The position numbers and the translations under genes were made by a program. Below the pieces are notes generated by a model. It was given only the letters and a program-made list of their open reading frames with translations, made no database searches and had not been told where the DNA came from. A DNA stretch of 21,243 nucleotides from Baffinella frigidus. Taxonomy: Eukaryota > Cryptophyceae > Cryptomonadales > Baffinellaceae. The stretch's first letter is position 1. The number at the start of each line of letters is the position of its first letter. Shown here piece by piece: positions 424 to 21,112 of this stretch. The stretch is from the NCBI GenBank assembly GCA_026770585.1, contig MU646315.1, positions 582,239 to 603,481 of the forward strand, written 5' to 3'.

Positions 424-1792
424 GTCTTACCCCTACACCCGACACCCTCTTAATCCTTCCTACACTCTCCTCCTAAACTCTCCCAAACCCCAAACCCCAA
501 ACTTCAAACCCCAAACCCCAAAACCGAGAGTCATGCTTGCGGCGTCTGGCTTCACAGTCCAACCCCTACACCCGAATCCCGGAATCCTGCCCCGCCCCTT
601 GTCCGCAGTGTTTCAAATGTGATGAAGTACTGTCATGGCTGCCTTGTTCGCAGAACGCCTTGTTTTGGTGTGTAGATGGGGTGAATAGCGCAGCGCCTGC
701 ACACGTATCAAGTCGCGAAACCACGATCGACGTTTCCGCAGAAGCACGGGCTGATCGCGACCCGGCTGCGAAACCCGAAACTCCATCCTATATCCAAACC
801 CCATCCTATATCCAAAGCCCTCACCTCATCCTAAACCCAGAACCCTACACACCAACAACAGGAGCACGGGCCGATTGCGACGCGGCTGGAGAAGTTCTAC
901 GCATACGCGAAAGACACGCTCTCGGCACAGGCGCACTACGACTTCGGCCTCCGCTCGCTTGTCTTGGTCCTGCGGCGGGCTGCCGCGGTGCGATACACCC
1001 TACCCCCTCCGAATGAACGCGTTTCAGTGTAGATCAATGCCACACGGCGGATTTCGAAGGGATTTTGAATAACTCCTAAACGACAAGACATTGGACCCTA
1101 CGGTAGGAAATCCATAGGGACATAGGTTCCTACGGGTAAGGTAACTTCCTACGGATTAGGTAGTTCCACAAGTACGCGAAAGACACTCTCTCGGCGCAAG
1201 CGCACTACGACTTTGACCTGCGATCGCTTGTTCTGGTCCTGCGGCGGGCTACCGCGATGAGATACCCCGTACCCACTCCAAATGAACGAGTTTCGATGTG
1301 AATCAATGCCACACAGCGGACTTTGAAGGGATTAGTAATGGTCCTGCGGCGGGCTGCCGCAGTGAGATACACCCTCATCCGTAAACCCTCCGAATATCTT
1401 TCATTTTGAAGACGGTGTCGTTCATTTTGCAACTGTGTAAATCAGTATGCGACCAACGTGTGAATCAATGTGTAAATTTTGCATTTGTGAATGTAGAGCC
1501 ATTCCGGTAGGACTTGTCGCGTTTTCGACTTCGAGATTTCAAGATTTCAGACTTCAAAAAGGTTTAAAAGGGCGTAAAACGTTTTAAAACACACCGTTTC
1601 AAATCTCATGGTACAAATGAAGTCTCGAAGTCTCGAAGTCTCGAAATCGGAAACGCGACAAGTCCTACCGGAATAGCTCTAACTCAATATTTTGAACCTT
1701 ACACCCTAAACCCTAAACCCTGAACACAGGGGCGATTCGCGGAGCCGAAAGAAGCTGAGCAGACCATCGTCGTTCGCGCACTCCGAGAGGTC

Positions 1793-1827
<35 letters not shown>

Positions 1828-1847
1828 TTTCTCTCTCTCTCTATATA

Positions 1848-1892
<45 letters not shown>

Positions 1893-4800
1893 CTTTCTCT
1901 CTTTCTCTCTCGCTCTCTTTCTCTCTCGCTCTCTTTTTCTCTCTCTCTCTCTCGCTTTCTCTCTCTCTCTCTCTCTGTCTTTGGCTGGCTAGCTGGCTGG
2001 CTGGCTGGCGTTCTCTCCTTCTCTCTATCTCTCTCTCTCTCCCTACACCCCCTCAACCCTAAACCCCCCAAACCGCATCCTCAGGTGAACATCGGGATGC
2101 TGACCATCGACGATCACCCGGTACTTCCCCAACCCCGAAACCCTCAACCCCAAACCCCAAACCCTAAACTCCAATCCCTAATCCCTAAACCCCAAACACC
2201 AAACCCCAAACCCTAAACCCTAAAGCCTAAACCCTCAACCCTCAACCCCACACCCTCAACCCTGAACCCTCAACCCTCAACCCTCAACCCTCAACCCCTG
2301 AACCCCAAAACCTGAACCCTAAACCCTAAACCCTAAACTCCAAAGCCTAAACCCTAAACCCTCAACCCCAAACCCTAAACCCTGAACCCTGAAACCTGAA
2401 CCCTGAACCCTGAACCCTGAACCCTGAACCCTACACTCTACACCCTACACCTTAAACCCTAAACCCCAAACCTCAAACCTCAAACTCTAACCCCTCAACC
2501 ACAAACTCTGAACCCAGTTGTTCGTGGGGCTTATGCACGACTTCTTCCCCGGTGGGCCCAACGTGGACAAGGTTGGAACCCCAACCCCAAACCCTGAATC
2601 CTAAACCCTAAACCCTAAACCCTAAACCCTAAACCCTAATCCTTAAACCCTAAACCCTAAACCCTAAACCCTACACCCTAATCCTTAAACCCCAAACGCC
2701 TAGCCTTAAACCCTTTACTCTTTACCCTTAACCCTAAACCCCAAGCCCTGAACACCAAACCCGAAACCCGAAACCCGAAACCCTAACCCCCAAACCCTAA
2801 CCCCCAAACCCAACATAAGGTGGAGCAGCCTGCGCGGGTGGAGGCCCTCCGCGAAGCGACGGAGTTCTTCAAGCTCGACGGGGAATCGATCATGGCAGTG
2901 CGCTGGGCCGAGAAGCTCAAAATGCTTGTCACCACTCTCGAGCACCGCCAGTGCATCGCCCTCGTCGGCCCCACCCTCTCAGGTACGCTCTCAGGACACT
3001 CTCAGGTCCTGAACCCTGAACCCTGAAGCCGAAAATGCTGGTTAGCATTCTCGAGCACCGCCAGTGCATTGCTCGTGTCGGCCCGACGCTCTCGGGTCGT
3101 TAATCCTACACCCTGAACCCATGAACCCCTGAACCCCTCCACCCCAACCCCGGAGCTTCCATCTCGTTGTGGAAGGCCTAACCCCTACTGCCCCCCGTGG
3201 TGCTGACAGCAAGGGGGTCGCGTGCTGACAACACGGAGGTTGCGGGGCATGACACGACCCTGAACTCGCGGCGTTTCGCAGAGGAGTCGAAGATACTGGA
3301 GTGTGCGATCCGGACACGCGTGTCCGAAACCCCTGAACCCCTGAACCACTGCACTCCTGAACACTTGAACCCCGAACCTCTTCAACCTCTGAATCCCTGA
3401 ATCCCTGCACCCAACCCCCTAATCATGCACCTGAAGGCTCTGAACCCGTGGCGTTTCGCAGGCAAGTCGACGATGCTCGAGTGTGCGATGCGGACGCGCG
3501 TGACCCTGGGAGGCAACAAGAAGGTGCCCATAAAGCCTAAACCATAAAACCATAAAGCCTCAACCATAAAACACCATAACGCCTAAACCATAAAACATAA
3601 ACCCTAAACCCTAATTGCTCACCCCTTACTCCCAATCCCCAAACCCTCCACCCTAAACCCCAAACTCCCAACCCTAAACACTACAACCTACCCACGAAAC
3701 ACTGAACACTGAACCCTCAACCCTTACGCAGGTGGTGTACAGGATGAACCCGAAGGCACTCTCACCGGAGCAGCTCTTCGGGATGCTCGACCCGGCTACC
3801 TCCGACTGGGTGCGACCCCTACTCCTCTTTTGATGAGCTGTTTGGACGGCATTGGCGTGGTCTGCCCCCCCCAACTTGGTCTGCTGATTTATCAACTGGC
3901 CAATCAGCTACTCTCTTTGCAGTTTCTCTGACCCCTGCATCTCTTGAGCAGAGGGGCTTCACCCAGAAATCCTGCCTCAACATCCGGCTGGGTCTAGCCC
4001 ATCAACCCTAGTCCCTCAGCCCTAGTCCGTCCGCCCTAGTCACACTCCTACAGCCCATGCGAAAGAAGGACACGGGTTACCTGACAACCCTGCTACTTTC
4101 GTATCTGACGAATCCACAATTTTATTCTCTGACAAATCTGCTGCTTTCGTATCTGACGAATGTGGTGTAACGTTGGAGCAGGTGGAGGGGGGCTTCTCAG
4201 CAACGTGGCGCAAGGCCTGCCGCCTCGCTCTCTACCAGGTACTCCGCCTCCACCGAAACCGATTGTCAATTCTAGAACCGGAGTGCCATGTGGAAGACTC
4301 CGCCCATGCTGTTGTCCTTGCCAACCTCCAAACCCTAACCCCAACCCCCCCCCCAACCCAAATCGCAGGACTCGTGGCTGGTGCTGGACGGGCCTGTGGA
4401 GCCGGAGTGGATCGAGACGCTCAACACCGCCCTCGACGACAACAAAGTCCGAAACCCGAACCCGAAACCCGAAACCCGAAACCCAAAACCCTAAAGCCTC
4501 TACCAAAGCCTCAACCAAAGCATATACCCTGAACCCTAAAGCATAAAGCATAAACCCTGAAAAGTAAATCTTAAACACCAAACACTAAAACCTGAACCCT
4601 CAACCCTCAACCTTGAAACTGAAACCCGAAGCCAACACCGCACTCGACGACAACAAAGTCTGAAACCCTCTCTCAACCCTGAACCCCATAACTACCCTAG
4701 ACCCTAAACCCTAAACCCTCAACCCTCAACTCTAAACCTTGTCCCCCAAACTCTTCCCCCTAAAACCCCAAACCTCACACCCTCTTCCCTAAACCTCAAA

Positions 4801-6300
4801 CCCAACCCCGAACCCTGACGCAGGTGCTGACCCTCCCGAACGGGGACCTCCTCCGGCTCCGGCCGTCGACGCGCCTCGTCCTCGAAACCGACAGGTTATT
4901 TGCCCCCCCCTCCCCTTACTCGGGATTCTCTCAGGTTACGAGCCCCGCGACTCCTACCTCTGCCTCACTCGGGTCGACTGTCAGACTATTCTCAAGTTGA
5001 CATGCTGGGATGAATAGAGTTGCTGGTTTTGGACAAGGCCTAAACCCTAAACCCTCAACCTCGTCACAGCCTCGCCGCAGCCTCCTCCGCATCTATCGGC
5101 CGCCTGGGTGTGATATCAGATGGCATATTGGACCGTACCGCATATTGAAGATGCGTGAATCGGCTGTACAGTTTTGACATGGCCTAAACCCTAAACCCTA
5201 AACCCTAAACCCTAAACCCTAAACCCCAAACCCTCCCCACAGCCTCGCGGCCGCCTCCCCCGCGTCAGTCGGACGCCTGGGGGTCATCTACGCGGCTCCC
5301 GGGACTATCGGATGGGAGCTTCTGCTTGCTTCGTGGCTGCAGACGCTCAACGAGGTTCCAGCTCCGCCTCATTTGCTCTGTGCTCCGCATTACGTACGGT
5401 TAGACGTTCTTTCTTCTTCTTCTTCTTCATCTTCTTTGTCTTCTTCTTTCTGTTCTGGTTCCTCTATGTCGCTCTCGAAACAGGTCATAGATAGGCCTGA
5501 TGTTCTTTGAACTGGCACCATCGGATGGGAGCATCTCCTCGCGTCGTGGCTCCACACTCTCAACAAGGTCCGGCCCAGCCCTGCCTTTGCCGAAAGTTGA
5601 CGTCGCTGGTGCTAAACTGTCAACTTTCCCCCAAACTGTCAACTTTCCCCCTGTCGACTTTGGGCAGATGCCCGCTCTGACGCCCCCCCCCCCCCAATGA
5701 GGTCCGTCCTGAAAACCAGCTCAACTGTCAACAACTTTCAGCTAAACTGTCAACTTTGGGCAGGTCGACCAAGAGTTTATGACGGTGTTGCTGGAGCCAA
5801 ACCTCGCCCAAAGTTTACGGGATTTACTCCAAAAATGAACGAGATTTACGCCGAAAGTTGACGACGCTGGGGCTGAACTGTCAACTTCCCCCTGTCAACT
5901 TTGCAGGTCGACCAGGAGTTTATGAAGATGTTGCTGGAGCCGAACCTCGAGTCGATCATTGACGTCGCCACCAAGCAATGCCGCCAGGTCTGGTTTTGGG
6001 GCTGGGATTAAGTGTTTAAGTTTCTGGGTTTGCTCCGCCATGACACTCTCCCCAACCGAGCTCCGCCATGAAACTCACCCCCATAAACCCTAACCCCTGG
6101 AAGCTAAACACTAAACCCTGGAACCTCGAGTCAATCATTGACGTCGCCACCAAGCAAAGCCGCCAGGTCTGTTTCTAGCCCCTCAACCCTCAACCCTAAA
6201 CCCTCAACCCTAAAACCTAAACCCTAAACCCTAGCCCCTCAACCCTACAACCTAAACCCTAGCCCCTCAACCCCAAACCCTAGCCCCTAAATCCTAGCCC

Positions 6301-6332
<32 letters not shown>

Positions 6333-8556
6333 ACCCTAAACCCTAAACCCTAAACCCTAAACCCTAAACCCTAAACCCTAGCCCCTCAACCCTAACCCCT
6401 AGCCCCTAAACCCTAGCCCCTCAACCCTCAACCCTAAACCCTAAACCCTAAACCCTAAACTCCAAACCCTAAACCCTAAACCGTCGCCACCAGCTCCGCC
6501 AGGTTTCTCCCCCCTAAGCCCTAACCTCTAAACCCTGCACCATGACCCCTACAGACTCTCTTAATCTCTCTTCATCACGCGTCATCAGGGGGGGGGGGGG
6601 TACACACAATAACGCGTACCCCCCCGGACGCGGCAGGTGATATGCCAGGAAACTCTCCCTAACTAAGTGTCCCCTAATCCCTAAACCATGTTCTAAACCC
6701 TGACCCCTAAACCCTAAACCCCTAAACCCTAAACCCTGAACCCTAAACCCTAACCTAAACCCTAATCCCCGGAATGCGACAGGTGATCACGGTGGACACG
6801 AACGCGCTGGTCATCTCCTGCTTCCGCTTTCTCGAGGCAAACCCTCAACCAACCCTAACCCCTAAACTCAGAACCCTACACCCTACACCCATCACCCTAA
6901 ACCCTGAACCCTACACCCATCACCCTAAACCCTACACCATGCACCCCACATCCTACACCCTAAACCCTACACCCTACACCCTACACTCTACACCCTACAC
7001 CCTACACCCTACATCCTACACCATACCCCTTAACCCTACACCCCACACCCTACACCCTAAACCCTAAACCCCAGACCCTAAACCCAACACCCCACACCCC
7101 ACACCCCACACCCCACGCCCCACACCCCACACCCCACACCCCACACCCCACACCCCACACCCCACACCCCTCACCCCCCACCCCTCACCCCCCACCCCTC
7201 ACCCAAACCCCAAACCCCAAACCCCACACCCCAAAGCAGGCGTTGCTGCACCCAGTGGACAGGAACCTGCGGGCGAACGAGCGTGCGCTGCAGACAGAGC
7301 TGCTGCAGACTGCCGAAGGAAAACTTACCGTCGAGGTCTCCACCCTTATAAACCCTTATAAACCCTTATAAACCCTTATAAACACGACACTTGACGCCCG
7401 ACGGCCCCTGCAAGCGGAAACACTCAACGTTCAATACTGAAGGGGGAGCTGCTGCAGACTGTTGATTGAAGATTGACTTTCGAGGTCGGACACTCTGCCC
7501 CAAACCCTAAACCTCGTGTAGAATTGCTAGACCCTAGACCCTCAACCCTAAACCCCACACCGTGAACCCTGTAAACAACCGTATAACCGTACTGTAAGCA
7601 ATATAATAAACAATCAACCATATACCATAAAGAATGAACAATAAACAAGAAATGATAAACAATACACAATACACACTCTTCAAAAAACAATAAAAAATAA
7701 AAATAAATAATAAGCAACACACACTAAACCCTAAACCCTACACCAGCTAAGGATGAAGCGGGTGGTGATATTCGCGCTGGTCTGGACATTCGGCGCGGCC
7801 GTCGAATCCGAGTCGCGCTTAAGGTTGTCTACCTTTTTCTCGCAGTCTGTTCGTGCTGGCCCATTCGGTGCGCCCGGGCCTTTTTTTGCTCCAAAGTTGA
7901 CGGATTTGTACCGCGAGTTCTGCTTTTCAACTTAAGGATAGTCGGGCAACACGAGACAGTTAAGGATGAAGCGGGTGGTGATATTCACGCTGGTCTGGAC
8001 CTTCGGCGCGGCCGTCGAATCCGAGTCGCGCTTAAGGTTCTCCTCCAACCCCTAGTTCTGCCTGAGTCTATTCGGGCCCACCCCCAGCTCCGCCTGAGTC
8101 TATTCAGGCTGACCCATTCGGTGCGCCCGGGCTCCTTTTCGCTCCAAAGTTGACGGATTTGTACCGCGAATTTAGCGTGTCAACTTAAGGATAGTCCGTG
8201 AACTCGAGTGAGGCTGAAGCGGGTGGTGATATTCGCGCGGCCGTCGAGTCCGAGTTGCACGCCAGGCTCCTCCCCCACTCCTTTCTTGGCTCTTCACATT
8301 TTCCAGCTCTGTCTCCGTCGACTAACCCCCAACCCCACACCCCTTACCCCTCACTCCCAACCCCTCAACCCAAAGCCCGAACCTCTAACCCGCTGGCAGG
8401 CTCGACACGGAGCTGCGGCGTATCTGGCCAGATGCAATGCCGGAGGCCCCCCCGGTTCCGACCACGGCCAAGGAGAGCAAGGCGATGGTGGGGCAAGTGG
8501 TCGACTACTCGTCCAAGATGGAGGACAACATGCTCAGCGTCGACCGCACCTGGTAC

Positions 8557-8588
<32 letters not shown>

Positions 8589-11500
8589 CAAACCCTAAAC
8601 TCCAAACCCTGAACCCCAAACCCCAAAACCCAAACACTACCCCAGGGTACCGTGGTCACGGATGGTGGAGGCGTTCAAGATGCCGGAGTCGTTCAGGAGG
8701 ATCGAGGAGCTGTACGTGCCGACGCCACACTCCGTCAAATACGGCTGGATCGTGCAGGTCGCTGCCCCGTCCCACACAGCGGGCTTCGAAGGGTTTTTGA
8801 ATAACCCATAAGCGATACGACATACGTCCCTATGGTAGGCAATAGCGTAGGGACATGGGGGGTTCCTATGGATAAGGTTACGGAAAGTGGGGGGAGCTGT
8901 ACGTGCCGACGGCACGATCCGGCAAGTACGGCTGGATCGTGCAGGTCGCTGCCCCGTCTTGGTCCAACGGGACTGATAAACAACGACTTTGACAAATCAT
9001 GTATCATTCCCGGCCAACTTCTCTGCACACCACTAAGAAACGTGCACCACTAAACCCTAGACCATATTCACTAAACCCTGTTCCCAAAACCCTATTGCGT
9101 AGGCGATGGTGTCCGGCTCACACGCGCGCGGCTGAGTCCTGCACAGTTTCCACCCCTGAGCTGACGGGCCTGAAGACCTGACACCCGTCACCCTGAACTC
9201 TGATCTCCGAGAGGTGATGGTGCCCGGTTCACACGCGCGCGGCGGCATGCGTGGCGCGGGGGGCGTCATCTTCTTCGGAAACCCCTCGAGACTCACCGTG
9301 ACCTTCCTATAAAAACATATAAAATCTACACGTGGCTGTGTACAACCTCTTTTACAAGAGGTTGTGTACCCAATAGTTGGCGGCAACGTGCCTGATCCCC
9401 GTACTTACCTGGACACGAGTGCCAAAGTGACATTTAACGTGTGGGGTGGAGGCGATGGTGCCCGGTTCACACGCGCGCGCGGGACGTGCGGCGCTGGGGG
9501 CGTGATCCTCTTCGGGAACCCCTCGAGCCTCACTGTGACCTTGATATATAATCTACTAGTGACGTGTAAAACGTCTTTTATAATTTGTGTTCTGACCTGG
9601 AGACGAGTGCCACACTGACATTTAACGTGGTGCAGGCGATGGTGCCCGGTTCACACGCGCGTGGGGGAATGCGTGGCGCGGGGGGGGTCATCCTATTCGG
9701 GAACCCCTCGAGTGGGAAGGGGGGCATTGCTCACGGCTTTCTTCGGAGCGCGAACCCGCAGGTACGTGTCGGGTATAGGGTTCTCGCCGACCCGCAGGCG
9801 AGTTCAGGGTATAGGGTATATGGTATATGGTATATAGTTCAGTATATAGCGTAAATGGGATAGGGGATAGGGGATAGGGGATAGGGGGTAGGGGATAGGG
9901 GTAGGGAGATTCTCTTCGGGAACCCCTCGAGTGGCAAGGCGGGCATTGCGCATGGCTTTATGCGGAGCGCCAACCCGCAGACGAGTTCTGGGTATAGCGT
10001 ATGGGGTATAGGGTACAGTGTAAAGCATAAATGGGATATGGGGATATGGGATAGGGGATAGGGGACAGGGGATAGGGGAGAGGGGATGGGGNNNNNNNNN
10101 NNNNNNNNNNNNNNNNNNNNNNNNNNNNNNNNNNNNNNNNNNNNNNNNNGAGGGGAGAGGGGAGAGGGGAAAGGGGAGAGGGGATAGGGGAGAGAGGAGA
10201 GGGGATAGGGGTTGGAACATCCTCTTCGGGAATCCTTCGAGCGGGAAGGTGGTAATTGTTTCTGGGTATTTGCGGAGCGCGAATCCGCTGGTGGGTCTGG
10301 TGTATAGCTTATAGTGTAGAGCGTATTGCGTATATCGTATAGGGGATAGGGGATAGGGGATAGGGGATAGGGGATAGGGGATAGGGGATAGGGGATAGGG
10401 GATAGGGAATATGGGACAAAAGGTCATAGGGTGGTTCTATTCAGACACCCAGAAGGTGGGAAGGGGAGCATTGCTGCTGGCTTTTTGTGCAACGCGAATC
10501 CGCAGGTGCGTTCGGGGTTCAGGGCAAGCGCCGACTGGAAGGCGAGTTCAGGTTTTAGGGTGTAGGGTATGGGGTATAGGGTATAGGGTATAGGGTATAG
10601 GATATAGGGTATAGGGTATAGGATATAGGGTAAAGGGTAAAGGGTATAGGGTATAGGATATAGGGTATAGGATATAGGGTAAAGGGTACAGGGTAGAGGG
10701 TAGAGGGCATATATAGGGTGATTCTCTTCGGACACCCCGAGGGTGGGAAGGAGAGCAGTGCTTCTGGCTATTTGTGGAGCGCGAATCCGCAGGCGAGTTT
10801 GGGGTGTAGGGTACAGGGTATATGGTATGGGATATAGGGTATAGGGTATGGGGTTCAGGGTATAGGGTGTAGGGTGTAGGGTGTAGGGTGTAGGGTGTAG
10901 GTTACCAAGTTACAAGGTTTGCGGTTAAGGTGCGTGTCTGGCTCGTTGGTGTTGACGAGTCAGACCTTTTCCTGGTACTGACCTCAGTAGCGTGGTGTAG
11001 GGGTGAGGTTCAGGGTTTAGCCGATGACGAGGGTTTAGTCATCGGCTAAGGCATTATCGCAGGACAAACAGTCCGCAGATCCGTGCACCCCGAACACATC
11101 CGAGATAATCCGTCTCCTTGCCCGAGGCGGGCCCTTCCTAGGACACCACCCTCGCACGGAGTGTCCGCAGGCACGCGTGCCCCAGCCCCAATCCAAACCG
11201 TAGATCCTAGACCCGACACCCGAAACCTAAAACCCGAAACCCGAAACCCGAAACCCGAAACCTAAAATCCGCAGGAACGAACGGGCAAGGAGGTGGCGCG
11301 CTCGCACCAAACCCTTAACATCCTTCCACGACTCTCCACAACCCCTGAAACCCCTCCACAACCCCTGACGCCTTGCACACACCCTGGAACCCTCCGTAGC
11401 CCCTGCAAATCGTAAAGCCCAACCCCCAAAGCAGGAACGGATGGGCAAAGAGGTGGTGCTCTCGCACCACTCCTCCTAAAGTTGATTCTGGAATGTGTAC

Positions 11501-13581
11501 CAGACACACGCCAAAAGTCAACAGCCCGCCACCGCAGCAATGTGGAATGTGTACCACGAAACAATTTGAGAGCGACACGTTGCGCTGTGAAAACCCTCGA
11601 TAACCCCTGAAAATCATCCACAGGAACGGATGGGCAAGGAGGTCGCGCTCTCGCACCACTCATCGGCAGGGCACCTCCAAGGCTGCATCGAATCCATCCT
11701 CGAGCGAAGACAGGTACGGGTGGACCCAATTCCGGCGTTAACCTAATTCCGCATCACCCCACCGTGTTGCATGCCGTAGCACCCTACGGAATGCCGGAAT
11801 TAGGTTAACCCTGGAATTAGGTGTGTCGAGTCTGTCCTCGAGCGAAGACTGGTCTAGCTCGGTCCCAGTCTATTTGGTCTCACCAATTTGGTGCGTCTGG
11901 GCGCTTTGGAGCGGAAAAGTCGACGGATTTGTACCGTGGACTGAGCATGCCAACTTGAGAATTGTCGGTCAACTCGAGAGATCACGACCAAGGGTTGACT
12001 CAACAGGGTGGCGGTGGGGTGGACCCTAAACACGAAACGGTACAAATCGGGCTGTTGTGACTTGGCTCGGCTGGAGCAGGGGCGCACGTACGGACCGGCG
12101 GGCGGGCGCGCGTGCTCCGTGCTCATCACAGACGTGTCGATGCCGCACGTCAACCGCCACGGCCACCAGGTTTGTCCATCACCCGACCCTACATCCGAAA
12201 CCCGAAACCCGGAACCCGGAACCCGAAACCCGAAACCCGAAACCCAGGGTTTTCATAAGCTGTTTAAAATCTGTTGGAAGGTATCCCTCCCATAACCTGT
12301 GTCATGAAGCGTGCTGGACACACTCCGGTCCTGGTCGAGAGAGCGGGACACACTGATCAGGGTCGGACACATTGTGCCGGATGCGGCGAAGGGTGTTGGA
12401 CACACATGTCCCGGTGTCAGACACACTGCTGACGCGTGTTGTACACACTGAATACGGTGTTGGGCACACCTATCCCGGTGTCGGAAACACCGATGACGGT
12501 GGTGTACACACCCCGAGGGTGTTGGACACTCTGCTGACGCGTGGCGAACACTGGCAGGCAACCGCGGAGATGCTGCGGGAGCTGGTGGAGGACAGGGTCC
12601 TCGCTAACTTCCAGAAGCCCGGCGAGTGGAAGTGCGCGCCCGAACCCAAAACCCGAAACCCGGAACCCGAAACCCGGAACCCGAAACACGGAACCCGGAA
12701 CCCGAAACAACAACCCACAGACCAGGACTCACAATCCGCACACCAAAAAACCTCAAAACTTAACCCCAACCCCCGAACCCCCGAACCCCTTACACCCCAA
12801 ACCCCAAACTCCAAATCTCCAAACCCTAACTCCAACTCCAACACCCTAAACCCTAAACCCTAAACCATGAACCATGAACCATGGACCATAAATCACAACA
12901 TCATAAACCATCAACAATAAACGACAAACCATAAACCATAAACCAAACCCCATAAACCCAAACCCTAAACCCGCGTAAACCATCTAGGTTCGTGCGCGGC
13001 CTGGACTACCTAGCGACAATGGCAACCCCGGGTGGGGGGCGCCCCGACCTGCCTCCACGCCTCAAGCCTCAACCCTGACGCCTGCACCCTGAACCCTTAC
13101 CACCGAACCCCAACCGCAATCCATACACTACGAACCACAAACCGCAAAACGTGAACCCCCACACCCTCAACCCAACCCCCACCCCCCCAAAACCCCACCC
13201 CTTCCGTCAGGTTCGTACGCGGCTTGGACTACCTAGCGACAATGGCCACTCCGGGCGGGGGGCGCCCTGACCTGCCTCCGAGGTTGAAGCGGCACTTCAC
13301 GCTCGTGTATGTGCCGAGAGTGGTGCGCGTGGATCTGGAGAGCATCTTCGGGTACACCCCACGCCATGAATCATCCATCATGAATCATGAATCATGAACT
13401 CTGGGGCCTGAAACCTGAATTGTAAAGCCTATACCTTAGCTCCCATCCAACCCCTCGATCCGATCACGAAATACGAAACCCGAAACCCCAAAACCCGGTG
13501 CCCTAACTTAGCTCCTATTTAACCCCTAGACATGAAACCAGCAACCCAAACCCCTAAACCCTAAACCATCAACCCTCAAAC

Positions 13582-13626
<45 letters not shown>

Positions 13627-13638
13627 TACCCTAAACCA

Positions 13639-13669
<31 letters not shown>

Positions 13670-16600
13670 ACCATCAAGCCTGAAGCGTGAAGCATCTCAT
13701 ATTTAAACCCTAGACCTAAAATCCTAGAACTGAAAACCTCAACCCCAAACTCGGCACCAGATCGATCATGCGGCAGTACGCGGCGCAGGAGAAGGCCACG
13801 CCTGAGGTTCCTGAGCCCTAAACCCTAAACCCTAAACCCCAATTCCTAAACCCCAAACCCTAAACCCTAAACCCTAAACCCCAAACCCTAAACCGAAACC
13901 CCTGGCCCCGTCGACTTTGAGAGCATCTTCGGGTAGACCCTGGACCCTAAACCCTAACTCTTCAACTTAAACCCTAAACCCTCACCTATCAACCCTAAAC
14001 CCTAAACCCTAAACTATCAACCCTAAACCCCAAACCCCAAACCACAAACCACAAACCCCGAACCACAAACCCCAAACCCCAAACCCCGATCAACAAATCC
14101 CTAAATCCAGGTGACGAAAGTGGCGAACGCGTCGGTGTCAGTGACGATGAAGATCTTCGAGCAGCTGATGCACATCATCCAGCCGACCTCCGTCAAGTTC
14201 CATCACACGGTACCCGCACCACACAGCGAACTACAAAGAGATTTCGTGAATAACACATAAGTGGGTAATCCACAGACCCCATTGTAGGCAATAATGTAGG
14301 GGTATGTGGGGGGTTCCTACGAGTAAGGTAACAGAAAGGTAGCGAACGCGTCGGTGTCAGTGACGATGAAGATCTTCGAGCGGCGGATGCACATCATCCA
14401 GCCGACCTCCGTCAAGTTCCACCACACGGTATCATACTATTTTTTTTTAGGTCAGCAAACCCCTAATCTCTGTCAGCAAACCCCTCGATGACCCTAACTG
14501 CCGCAGTTGTCACTCATGTGCTGACCCGAAGCATCTCGGTTTTAATGCTGAGCTAACCCGCAGCGTCGATATTCCAGGTGCTGACGCGAACCGTTGTGTT
14601 TACAGGTGTCCGTGCGTGACATCTCGCGGCTGTACGCGGGCGTGATCCGGCTGCACTGGGACGAAATCACGACAAGGGAGTCGTTTGTCCGGCTGTGGAA
14701 ACACGAAGCCGAGCGCGCGTTCACGGATAAGCTTGTGGAGGCCACCGACGCACAGGTCCACCAGTCGTGTCCAGTTTTGTACGGACCCGTCCGAGTCCAT
14801 GTCCGCCCGATCAACACAGATCAAGTCTTCTTCTTTCTTCTTTATGGTCCTCAGAGCCTTTAAGCTGGTCGAGGCCACCGACGCGCAGGCCAGAGTCCCC
14901 ACACGTCGGGATACGAAAGGATTTCGTGAATAACCCATAAAGACTAAGCCTTAGAACCTACGGTAGGTAATGCCGTAGGGGCATATGGGGGTTCCTACGG
15001 ACACGCTTGTGAAGGCCACCGACGCCTTCGGGCCAGCGTCCCGAAGAAAGCGTGGTGGCCACGTTTTTTTCGTATCCAGGGATAAGCTTGTGGAGGCTAC
15101 AGGTCCGCCGGTCGTGTCCAGTTTTGTACGGACTCGTCCTAGTCCATGTCGGCCCAATCAACCCAGAGTCCCCCTTACCCCTAAACACCTATTCCCTGAA
15201 CCCTGTTAACGCCGTGAAGCCAGAACCGTGGACGCGATGGGTGTGCCCCGTCAGCGTTGCAGATCATAAACCTCAACGTTTTGGAGTGCGTCCGTACAAA
15301 ACTGGACACGACTACGCACGTGTCTGCCTTGTTGCTGACTTTGCTGACTAAATTTGCTGACTCAATCTGGACACGATGGTGTGCGCAGGCAGCGTTGCAG
15401 ATCATAAACCTCAACGTCTCGGAGTGGTGCGGCGCCAAGATCGCGCGCGAAGTGTCGAAGCCGACCTACTTCTGCTGCCGCGCTGGCAGGTCCGCCCCGC
15501 CTCCCGTGTAAACCGAGCCGCCTCCCGCATGTCCTCCGGGGATTTCCGGGTTCGTCCAAGCCTTCCCCGTGTTAGTTAGCTTGTCCTACTGGACGAGACA
15601 CTAGTTCCCATATCTACCCTTCGGGGTGGTAGCTGTTTGAGCCCTCTGGTCTCGACGCATCTCTCCCCCTAGCGTGAAGCGGTCGTGTTTGTCAACTTAT
15701 CAAACATCGCTTTTCCCCTGTAGGGTCCGCCTCCCGTACTCCCTTCTTTTTCTTTTCTACCTGCCACCTTGTCCGAATGGGGCATGACAACTGTGTTAGC
15801 AGTGAACGGTGCCCTGCCCCCGCCCACTCTCTGAAAAGAGGCGACCGGTAACGCTCGCCCCTCGCGATGGCAAAATCTTTGGCGAAATTGAACTTTGGCC
15901 GAAGACGAGCCTAAGCACTCAGCCCGCTCCCAAAATCCAAACCCGAAACCCTGCTGTGACGAGGACGTCGCGTTCCAGCAGGCAAGAACAGATGCGGACG
16001 CTATCCATTTTGACCGAAAAGGGCATCGAACCCCTCGAAGAGAGTTAACCCTGAAAGTGAACCCATCCCCTCACGATGGCAGCGACGAGGATATAGCGTT
16101 CGCGTTGTGGGTCTAGGTTTGAGATAGCAGCATCTGGGGTGTAGGGTGTAGGGTTTAGAGTCCGCGTCCGTCCAACGGACGCTGACTCCCCCCCTTCTTC
16201 CATCTCTGACAGCGAAGCCTGTTAACGCTCGCACCTAAACCCTGAACCCTAAACCCCAAACCCTAAACCCTCACCCCCTAACCCCACAGCGACGAGGACA
16301 TATCGTTCGAGCAGGAAACCGGGGATGCGGATGCGCCCACGCGCATCTACGAGCACTGTCCTGGCCTCGACGCCGCCCACGAGGTCCGTCTTCTCCGTTT
16401 CTTCAACTTCATTGGATACACCTGCCTAGCCTCAACGGGGGGGGTACCTACAAGAGCAATGCCTGGATGATACACCTCCGTACGTAGTCAGTATAGAGTA
16501 GCGGATGCGCCCACGTGCATCTACGAGCACTGTCTTGGCCTCGAGGCCGCCAACGAGGTACACCATCGATACACCCTGGACCCTGGACCCTGAACCCTGA

Positions 16601-19074
16601 ACCCTGAACCCTGAACCCTGAACCCTGAACCCTGAATGAACCCTGAACCCTGGACCCTGAACCCTGGACCCTGAACCCTGAAGTCTGAACCCTGAATGAA
16701 TCGTGAACCCTCAACCCTGAACCCTGAACCCTGAACCCTGAACTCTGAACCCTGAACCCTGAATGAATCGTGAACCCTCAACCCTGAACCCTAAACCCTA
16801 AACCCTAAACCCTAAACCTTAGTCCTCAACCCTAATCGACGGTCCCTGAACCCTAATCCACGGCGCATTGTTTAATGGTGGATGGTTGTGGGCTAAACCC
16901 CTTAACCATACAACAGGTAGTGGGCCGGTACATGCAGAGACACAACAACGATCCGGCCACCTCCTTGAGAACCCTACACCGCAAAAAATAACCAATAAAC
17001 CACACACAATCAATAATCAATAATAAATAATAAATAATAAATAATAAATGAATAATAATAGATAATAAATGATACATAATAACCCCTAAACCCTAAACCC
17101 ACACGCAGGTAGTGGACCGGTACCTGCAGAGGCACAACGACGATCCGGCCACCTCCGACAGGCTCCGTCTTGCGCTGTTCGAATACGCTGGTTCGCTTCT
17201 CCCACCCGTGAGTGGCTTCTTCATTGGCATCGGTTAACCAATTTCAAATTTTGACAATTCTGGTACCACCTCGTGGCTTTGTGGAGAAAACCTAATTATT
17301 TGGTGGCCCTCAGATCTGATGGCCCAACCCCCGCCCCCCACACCCACACACACCGCCCCCCCCTACACACAAAGGGTCTAAACATTTGGGCGGTGTGTTG
17401 GGCAGTGGCGCACGTGCTGAAGATCCTGCACGTGATCACCCTCGCCCGCGGTCACGCTCTCCTTCTCGGCGCCAGGTCCCAACCATCAGCGCCCGAGTTC
17501 TATCTCTCCAGGATTGCTCTTTTGCTCGGCGCCAGGTATCTGCCCTTCCAGAGTCAATCCCTCCAAAACAGAGGTTCCCTTTTGTTTTGAGACGTGCCAC
17601 TACCGACTTTTGTATCAGCCGCTCCGGAGTCCCCCATGTGAACCGTGCCCCCACTCCCTTTTGAAACCGTGCTCTTGTGAACTGTGCCCCCGCTCTCGTG
17701 TGAACCGTGCCCCAACCCCCGGGTCTCCACCGTTACTCCTAGTAACGGAGGTTCTCTTTTGCTTTGAGACGTCCCACTCTCGACGTTTGTGTCAGTTAGT
17801 ACCAGGGAAACCTCTGGTCAGCCACGTGGTGTGGGTCCCCCATAGCTCTACACTCGCCGAGCTCGGTTGAGCCCGGTTCAGCCATTTGATGCTTCCAGAA
17901 ATCCAGACCTCGTATTTTTTCACATTCTTCTGTGAAAAACAGTACCAGGATCGGGGTGAGTAAAAGCTTTCTGTTTTCGACCTGTGTTTGGTCCAAAAAC
18001 TGTGAGAAAGCAAATTTTGGGAAGCATGCAGTGCCGCGGTACAACCCCAGGTTGCGCTTCCCTCAAACTTTCGTATTGGGAACTCCGGTTCCCTGAAACC
18101 TGAATCCTGCACTCTAAACGAAGCACCCTAAATCCTAACCCCAAAACCCAAAACCCAAAACCCAAAACCCAAAACCCAAAACCCAAACCCCTCAACCCGT
18201 ACTCCCCCCACCCACCAGCTCAACGGGCAAGTCATCACTCACGAGGCTCGCAACCTACATGGCGGGGCATTTCTTCATCCAGCTATCCCCGGGCCTCCTC
18301 CCCGGACGGCCCGCGTTCGTGGAATTGCTCAAGAGTACCGTCCGCGACGCGGCTGCGGTCAGTCCTTTTTCCGTCCTAAGTTGACGGATTGGCAATATTC
18401 ACACCCTCGGCCCATCCCGCCGCGGCCCTAAACCCCAAACCCCAAACCCCAAACCCCAAACCCCAAACCCCAAACCCTAAACCCCAACCTCTAATCCCCA
18501 AACCTTAAACCCCAAACCCTAAACCCTCAACCCCAAACCTTGAACCCTACACGCTACACCCTAAACCCTAAACCCCAAACCCTAAACCCCAAACTCTAAA
18601 CCTCAAACCCTAAACCCCAAACCCTGAACAGATCGGGGCGCAAGCGACGATTCTAGTGACCGGGAAGCAAGCATCGGAAGCGGTGGTGTTGGACGTGATC
18701 AATGAGATCGTCCACACGGGCGAGTGTCTTGGCATGTTCTCGTCCGAGGAGCAGGTCCGTGCCCACTTGTCACGGCACCTATTAGGTTATATGTCGCAAA
18801 GCGTCTCTTTATAGGATCTCCGGTACACTTCCTTGCATTTTAAACCCTAAAAGTACGAAATGGCGCCAACGCCAAGCCAAAATTTGAGACGCACTTGCGA
18901 CTGATGGCATGTCCAATCCTGTCATCGTCGACACACTAGCTGCTGACATGGACGCACTCGACATTGTCGTCGACGCACTGGCTACCAATGGCACGTCCAG
19001 CCCTGCTGTCATCGACACACTCGCTACTTCCGGACACCTAATGCTTGAATCACGTGTACACTAAACCCTGAACC

Positions 19075-19137
<63 letters not shown>

Positions 19138-20084
19138 GGAGAGGGGGGGGCACACTTGTGAGTCTGCATCGCCGCTCGCAGGTTGTGTGTGTAGTTCTTT
19201 GAGTGAGAGTGTTCCCCGCATGCGCAAGCTCTCGCCGCGTGCAGGCTATGTGCGTAGATCTCTTTGTCGAGTCCCTATCCGCAGTTGGTAAGCAGTTGGA
19301 TGTCAGCAAAGGAGATTCCCTCTCTCCGAAGCAAGCTCGCGGCTCACACCTCAAACCCTGAACCCCAGACCCTGAAACGCAAATCCTGAACCCTGAACTC
19401 CAAACCCTGAACCCTAAACTTTAAAACTCGAAACCTGAACTGTAATCCCTGAACCCTAAACACAGGCGATGCTGGTGTCTGAAGCCCTGGAGGATTCAGC
19501 GAAGAAGCGCGGCTACCCCCTCACCTTGGAAGGCAAACAGGTATCCACCTTATTTTTTGATGGTGTGCCACCTCATGCTATCGGCCAACCGCGCCGCGCC
19601 CCATGTGGTGCATGTATATCCTATCTCTGTTTCAATCTATTTGGTCGCTCCAATTTGGTGAGACTGGGCTCTTTTCCGCTCCAAAGTTGACGAATGTGTA
19701 CCCAACCCCAGCCTTTCAACTCAAGAATAGTCATCCAACCCGACCGAAGCAGAGCTGGATATCGAGTGTCGCGCGCACGGTACTCACGTGGCACGTCTCC
19801 TGTGCAGAAATACCTGTGTGACCGGGTCAAGGACGCGCTGCATTTCGTGCTCTGCTTCCCCCTTCAGGGCGTGCTGCCGATCGTCGCCAGACGGTTCGAA
19901 CCCTGAACCCTAGACCCTGAACACTGAACACTGAACCATGAGCCATGAACCATGAACCCTGAACCATGAACCCTGAACCCTGAACCATGAACCCTGAACC
20001 CTGAACCCTGAACCCTAAACCCTGAACCCTGAACCCTAGACCCTGAACCCTAAACCCTGAACCCTAAACCCTCAACCCTAAACC

Positions 20085-20130
<46 letters not shown>

Positions 20131-21112: not shown

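Follow-up and report, generated by a model that had tools for sequence, protein, structure and literature searches.

Tandem duplications made by the repair of staggered breaks are said to have been described in plants by Vaughn and Bennetzen and by Schiml and colleagues, reportedly with filler sequence between the copies. In mouse cells, Pol alpha-primase guided by CST (the telomere-end fill-in complex) gives rise to small tandem duplications at breaks with 3' overhangs (PMC8355091). Fork stalling, with the involvement of template switching, has been described for interstitial telomeric tracts, and an 800-bp telomeric tract that was put into an intron rearranged the gene in which it had been placed (PMC6410037). 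The gain of introns through break repair or tandem duplication is also known (PMC3443670).

The genome of the cryptophyte Baffinella frigidus carries local duplications that can be set beside each of these systems. We refer to direct copies of the head or tail of an exon that lie in its surroundings as "ghosts". They resemble the duplications from staggered-break repair (PMC8355091) in being direct, local, tens of bases long and suggestive of overhang fill-in, but they belong to a class that makes up about a quarter of the unmasked DNA in the loci read, have long filler that is rich in telomere-like arrays and pieces of MITEs, and form ladders at exon edges. Direct repeats attributed to staggered-break repair or to the duplication of exon sequence have been described at introns, whereas the repeats here are tens of bases long and decorate introns that are already present. 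The telomere-like arrays within chromosomes recall interstitial telomeric sequences (PMC6410037), with the difference that here they are degenerate, constitute a large part of ordinary introns and keep one orientation with respect to transcription in five genes. The introns gained in the chlorarachniophyte Amorphochlora likewise bear simple repeats and lie at AG|GN sites, but these repeats are [AT]n rather than telomere-like heptamers, and the parts of that report available to us make no mention of exon ghosts (PMC12730881). Introners also place mobile sequence within introns; the introns are newly created by them and the target duplications are only a few bases long, in contrast to the tens of bases that repeat exon edges here (PMC9860276). 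Short tandem duplication by staggered-break repair is a known process, of which the present case would be an extreme form, and the portions of the open-licence PubMed Central literature that we consulted hold no account of introns that grow through ladders of copied exon edges separated by telomere-like filler.

The window, by which we mean the whole stretch of 21,243 nucleotides that was analysed (C13:582239-603481), comes from an assembly of 382 Mb in 1364 contigs. Exon calls place in it, on the forward strand at 352-21103, part of a dynein heavy chain gene (the AAA1-AAA4 region) in 36 exons; of the 35 introns between them 34 are of the GT-AG type, and intron 14 (6837-7239) is the sole GC-AG example. 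The joined protein covers AAA1 to AAA4 of outer-arm dynein heavy chains, with matches to the Pfam families AAA_6, AAA_7 and AAA_8 above their cut-offs, and DNAH5 was its top match in a search of solved structures (E 1.9e-139). The AAA3 P-loop (window 9636-9761) reads GNPSSGKGG and is without the S or T that normally follows GK. The gene seems to continue downstream of the window. Among the window's neighbours (L004-L006), L004 contains a dynein match of 23 residues (E 2.5e-4) and L005 contains dynein pieces, with matches to AAA_9, D6 and AAA_lid_11 that all lie under the Pfam cut-offs. The introns of the window amount to 17.4 kb, of which 41% is array-like, 6% is assigned to A, B or MITE elements (described below) and 18% consists of unmasked local duplicates, those with a partner that overlaps an exon accounting for 13%; arrays, A/B/MITE elements or local duplicates together occupy 63% of these bases.

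The exons were aligned one by one to the sequence within 1.3 kb of them, with a Smith-Waterman score of at least 34 as the strict threshold. A direct head or tail copy within 1.3 kb was found for 18 of the 36 exons at this threshold (17/36 at a score of 42 and 13/36 at 60), as against 0/36 in the reverse-complement control of the same exons and 0/802 when exons were compared with foreign neighbourhoods more than 4.5 kb away. The ghosts to which an earlier note on this DNA had drawn attention are therefore real. That note's count of at least 22 of the 36 exons is larger than the strict count, and it is approached when weaker copies are admitted at exon 15 (E 0.009 in the self-comparison) and at exons 14 and 30 (seen by eye); its statement that nearly every exon is affected goes too far for what is half of them at the strict threshold. 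Self-comparison of the window, with arrays masked and the copies within one family counted pairwise, gave 48 direct as opposed to 4 inverted matches less than 1.5 kb apart, in agreement with the claim of a common orientation. The collection of ghosts comprises 33 copies, which measure 22-95 bp and have identities of 75-100% to their exons. Of the 15 head copies extending to the edge of the exon, 14 are directly preceded by AG, and of the 17 tail copies 15 are directly followed by GT or GC, so that the ghosts do carry the splice site, as had been noticed. Their confinement to the adjoining intron has a possible exception in a weak copy of the exon 23 tail (about 13912-13935, by eye and under the threshold), which lies past exon 24.

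All of the collected copies are on the forward strand. From the 5' end they comprise ghosts of the tail of exon 1 (525-551), the head (743-768) and tail of exon 2 (1162-1256, with a B element as filler, and a second at 1339-1360), the tail of exon 6 (3025-3093), the head of exon 7 (3285-3325) and the tail of exon 10 (4633-4657), the last two with array-like filler, and the heads and tails of exon 12 (5069-5114 and 5514-5567) and exon 13 (5764-5806 and 6121-6166). Exon 16 is represented by a whole-exon ghost (7963-8037) and a second ghost (8211-8238), each with an A element as filler, and exon 18 by a tail ghost whose filler is a truncated B (8893-8944). Exon 19 is flanked by head ghosts at 9103-9131, 9216-9290 and 9452-9527 and by tail ghosts at 9909-9980, 10218-10288, 10456-10505 and 10716-10792, with a 58-base assembly gap (10092-10149) between two of them. 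These are followed by head ghosts of exon 20 (11275-11309 and 11435-11475) and exon 23 (12989-13056), and by a ghost of nearly the whole of exon 25 (14334-14428) that has a truncated B as filler. At exon 26 there are a tail ghost (14861-14888), a ghost that ends 4 bases before the exon end and has a truncated B as filler (14997-15025), and an internal ghost (15077-15100); the remainder are copies of the heads of exons 27 (15252-15288) and 29 (16917-16964), the tail of exon 28 (16501-16557) and both the head (20201-20259) and tail (20745-20783) of exon 35.

We consider it rather likely that these ghosts are the scars of a genome-wide mutation process that leaves units of copy, filler and copy, in which break repair or template switching makes the duplications and selection acts on the outcome. 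The filler in such a unit is a telomere-like array, an A or B element, a hairpin or other sequence. Families A and B look like MITEs with terminal inverted repeats and sit within introns. The A element is about 150 bp long with ends CTAGCTCTGYCTCAGTC and occurs on the forward strand at 7844-7955, 8080-8210, 11856-11978 and 19650-19732; a further A element at about 20665-20745 was recognised by eye only. The B element is about 165 bp long with ends CCCACACAGCGG, and its forward-strand copies in the window (1040-1145, 8772-8888, 14219-14338 and 14899-15001) are all without the 3' end, which is present in 5 of 8 copies elsewhere.

Arrays and A/B elements do lie between exon and ghost, as the earlier note had it, but the fold-back sequence that it placed there as well (1494-1682) is a separate MITE without flanking ghosts. 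It has terminal inverted repeats and TA at both ends, as seen in 18 copies read, and we take it to be Tc1/mariner-like. Of 353 candidates genome-wide 40 were scored, and these are, besides itself, 97-99% identical, on which account the family is apparently young; one copy is nested within a B element and another within an A element (L037, L029). As a cause of the ghosts it was rejected, being a TA-ended MITE that is not found between the copies.

The presence of dispersed A or B elements between the copies of several pairs, together with the great abundance of B (1463 first-look candidates in the genome, 40 of them scored), would suit an explanation in which A, B, the array-like sequences and others are mobile and make target-site duplications tens of bases long. 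That all four B copies in the window are without their 3' end speaks against this, as does the finding that most B copies elsewhere, outside genes, are without a flanking duplication; moreover, copy lengths vary widely, and arrays or unassigned sequence make up many of the fillers. We regard mobility of this kind as a rather improbable source of the ghosts.

The structure of the units bears on whether they could instead be plain tandem duplications, by slippage or unequal exchange, that have diverged since. In 38 copy pairs, chosen by hand from the masked self-comparison and by eye, the filler measures 27-241 bp and falls between 63 and 189 bp in 34, and in most of these pairs the sequence after the second copy differs from the filler. 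Copy and filler have been duplicated as one at 7750-8238 and 9211-9712, which fits the slippage that the earlier note named as an alternative, and parts of the filler are also repeated in the HSP70 ladder described below. Set against these cases are the non-filler sequence that follows the second copy in most pairs and the dispersed elements that lie between copies, so that tandem duplication accounts for a minority of cases and is improbable as the general explanation. At the joints between an element and a second copy, inspected by eye and without a control for chance, at least 3 bases are shared in 4 of 7 cases, the longest identity being ACGGATAAG, between B and exon 26.

Several exons have more than one ghost on the same side. 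An HSP70 gene on another contig (C226, L049) has six copies upstream of the head region of exon 3, all in one intron, with scores of 34.5-114 compared with 21.5 in the reverse-complement control. Moving off the exon, their identities are 97, 92, 90, 90, 79 and 89%, an order that is broken by the farthest copy. The tail copies of exon 19 in the dynein gene likewise drop from 86-88% to 73-76% identity with distance, while its head copies (89-90%) exhibit no such trend. The simplest reading of these ladders is that events were repeated at a live exon edge and that older ghosts were pushed outward.

The earlier note had proposed comparison with other genes of the genome, and of five genes examined three have exon ghosts: this dynein, a second dynein (C23) and the HSP70 of C226, where they occur at one of the three exons found. 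No exon ghosts were detected in a third dynein (C65), nor at the five exons found for the HSP70 of C62. In the C65 dynein, 5 of 6 intron stretches are almost pure telomere-like array, lying between AG|GT- or AG|GC-type sites (L038, L039, L041), and some of its introns have 3-4 junction bases repeated at both ends (six introns, by eye); it is possible that these introns were born from arrays. Two HSP70 genes in opposite orientations at C709:130108-134621 have uninterrupted frames, unlike those of C226 and C62, which are interrupted. Among the best 120 matches listed for an uninterrupted HSP70 frame (608 residues), one JGI protein matches at 100%, Guillardia theta at 90%, Hanusia, Proteomonas and Hemiselmis at 88-89% and a Baffinella protein at 82%, which points to a cryptophyte as the probable host. 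Pfam scans for further genes found none in L007, L024 and L026, one match under the cut-off in L037 and one DcpS exon in L008.

Local duplications also occur in loci unrelated to the dynein gene. A further 26 sequences, with 88 kb unmasked, gave 220 direct as against 66 inverted matches at distances of up to 600 bp, the latter number being inflated by the MITE's own arms. Of these sequences 19 were selected for carrying the MITE and three adjoin the window; the 20 MITE loci, 19 of them outside the window, are thus not a random sample. In six other loci of 10 kb each, picked by coordinate (two adjoin the window), 23.2% of the unmasked sequence (39.4 kb) belongs to local direct duplications, compared with 24.4% in the window; the share is 5.8% for inverted duplications, 1.6% for direct pairs separated by more than 3 kb and 0 in order-1 shuffles. 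Of 15 regions sampled at one stage, 8 consisted of N throughout. Within the window, local duplications take in 35% of the exon bases (1138 of 3283) and 31% of the intron bases outside arrays (3162 of 10255). The duplication process is mostly not specific to exons, affecting exons and introns about equally, and the idea that it is tied to exon edges can be given up.

What does distinguish exons is the placement of the copies that reach them. Only 2 of 33 ghosts are internal to an exon, both at exon 26, as compared with 39% expected, among those that overlap an exon by at least 20 bp, for randomly placed duplications with the lengths found in other loci. The shortage has P 2e-5 on the assumption that copies are independent, which they are not, and P 0.002 when counted per exon (1/18). 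We infer that it reflects selection: where the splice site lies within the copy, one complete exon with its junction remains, whereas a copy without a splice site breaks the frame.

Insertions that seek out splice junctions or AG|GT sites, as introners do, would also explain the shortage, and the AG or GT/GC carried by the ghosts would suit it. Thirteen of 32 intron-side ghost edges lie within 8 bp of a splice site (8.3 expected, P 0.03) and 8 within 4 bp (4.6 expected, P 0.06). A first count of 19/32 within 8 bp had suggested that edges stop exactly at splice sites, but the number shrank to the present one when gaps and array similarity were allowed for. The slight excess that is left hints at targeting and is not well explained by us. 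Against targeting as the general cause stand the same duplications in other loci, where no motif was found at copy edges, and the coverage of intron as much as exon. In addition, a comparison of the 35 intron ends with shuffled pairs revealed nothing beyond the splice consensus that would indicate target duplication (p = 0.25), and we judge targeting to be very unlikely. The latter result also divides an earlier claim that introns grow or arose in this way, in that growth is seen and an origin, with its target-duplication signature, is not.

The copies have diverged in a manner that bears on what they are. The 190 differences between exons and ghosts are distributed over the three codon positions as 37, 38 and 115, and 112 (59%) are synonymous and 78 nonsynonymous; a few ghosts, that of exon 23 (6/6) and one copy of exon 19 (7/7), have only synonymous differences. 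By our estimate about half of the differences between a live exon and a neutral copy should be synonymous, while few nonsynonymous ones would be expected between two working alleles. The codon pattern fits a live exon beside a decaying copy better than two functional haplotypes. It speaks accordingly against the suggestion, also made in the earlier note, that two haplotypes have been stitched together in the assembly. Gaps are present, one of them within the exon 19 ladder, and array-rich introns are hard to assemble, as one would want for an artefact in which haplotypes or mis-joined repeats are placed in series; but the divergence of the copies ranges from 0 to 25% inside a single gene, the synonymous share is not the strong bias of two functional alleles and the pattern recurs in many loci, so that an artefact is extremely unlikely. 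That the ghosts are functional, for instance as regulatory or alternative exons, is scarcely credible despite their retained splice dinucleotides and the few all-synonymous cases, given that 78 of 190 differences are nonsynonymous, which is not the pattern of two functional copies, and that copy ends ignore the codons and domains of the protein.

The earlier note's suggestion of insertion or of break repair, accompanied by local duplication, remains the best fit to copies that are direct and local, to filler that is mostly not repeated after the second copy and to the codon pattern, although its restriction to exons does not hold. The process that we envisage would begin with a staggered break or the stalling of a fork, the repair of which would double about 20-110 bp of local sequence and separate the copies by filler, mostly of 60-190 bp. 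Exon and intron sequence would be affected alike, but events that overlap an exon would persist mainly if the duplicated stretch holds the splice site; one complete exon with a working junction would then be kept, and the spare copy would be left in the intron to decay. Repetition at one live exon edge would produce ladders, and introns would grow by accretion. The enzymology might be a fill-in of the CST-Pol alpha type or template switching guided by microhomology.

The trigger might be breakage or fork stalling at the telomere-like arrays of introns, which would be likely candidates because fork stalling and template switching are known at interstitial telomeric tracts. The arrays in the window consist of CCCTAAA and its variants (for example the period-7 array at 2134-2811, forward strand). 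In five genes the C-rich strand is the sense strand, with CCCTAAA:TTTAGGG ratios of 123:1 (window), 110:3, 54:1, 21:0 and 51:0, and in most of the loci L004-L008, L013, L017 and L019-L037 the orientation is constant over several kb, as if it were set by the direction of the gene or of replication. G-rich arrays of the opposite orientation (GGGATAG, GGGTATA) surround the tail ghosts of exon 19 (window 9806-10901), the region that includes the assembly gap. In other loci an array edge lies within 15 bp of a copy in 17-25% of flanks, compared with 6.5% at random. This enrichment is found on all four copy flanks, inner and outer alike, and arrays are for that reason not marked out as the trigger; the absence of bias to one flank side and the array-intron gene on C65, which is without ghosts, count against that role. 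It is doubtful, though conceivable, that these elements form a self-feeding engine of intron growth, in which interstitial telomeric arrays would break or stall forks, telomerase would supply array filler and CST-Pol alpha the second copy, and introns would grow outward from live edges in ladders that can be dated. Such an engine, if real, would be distinct from both introners and slippage.

The growth of introns is usually credited to transposons, whereas much of it has here left legible traces of local re-copying. A ghost, being a spare copy, can be dated against its live exon, and the ladders provide a relative order of events. The tolerance of insertions that reach into exons has a simple reason in this setting, namely that the duplication leaves one exon intact. 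Were the link to the arrays true, interstitial telomeric DNA and telomere-type repair would be tied to the size of introns.
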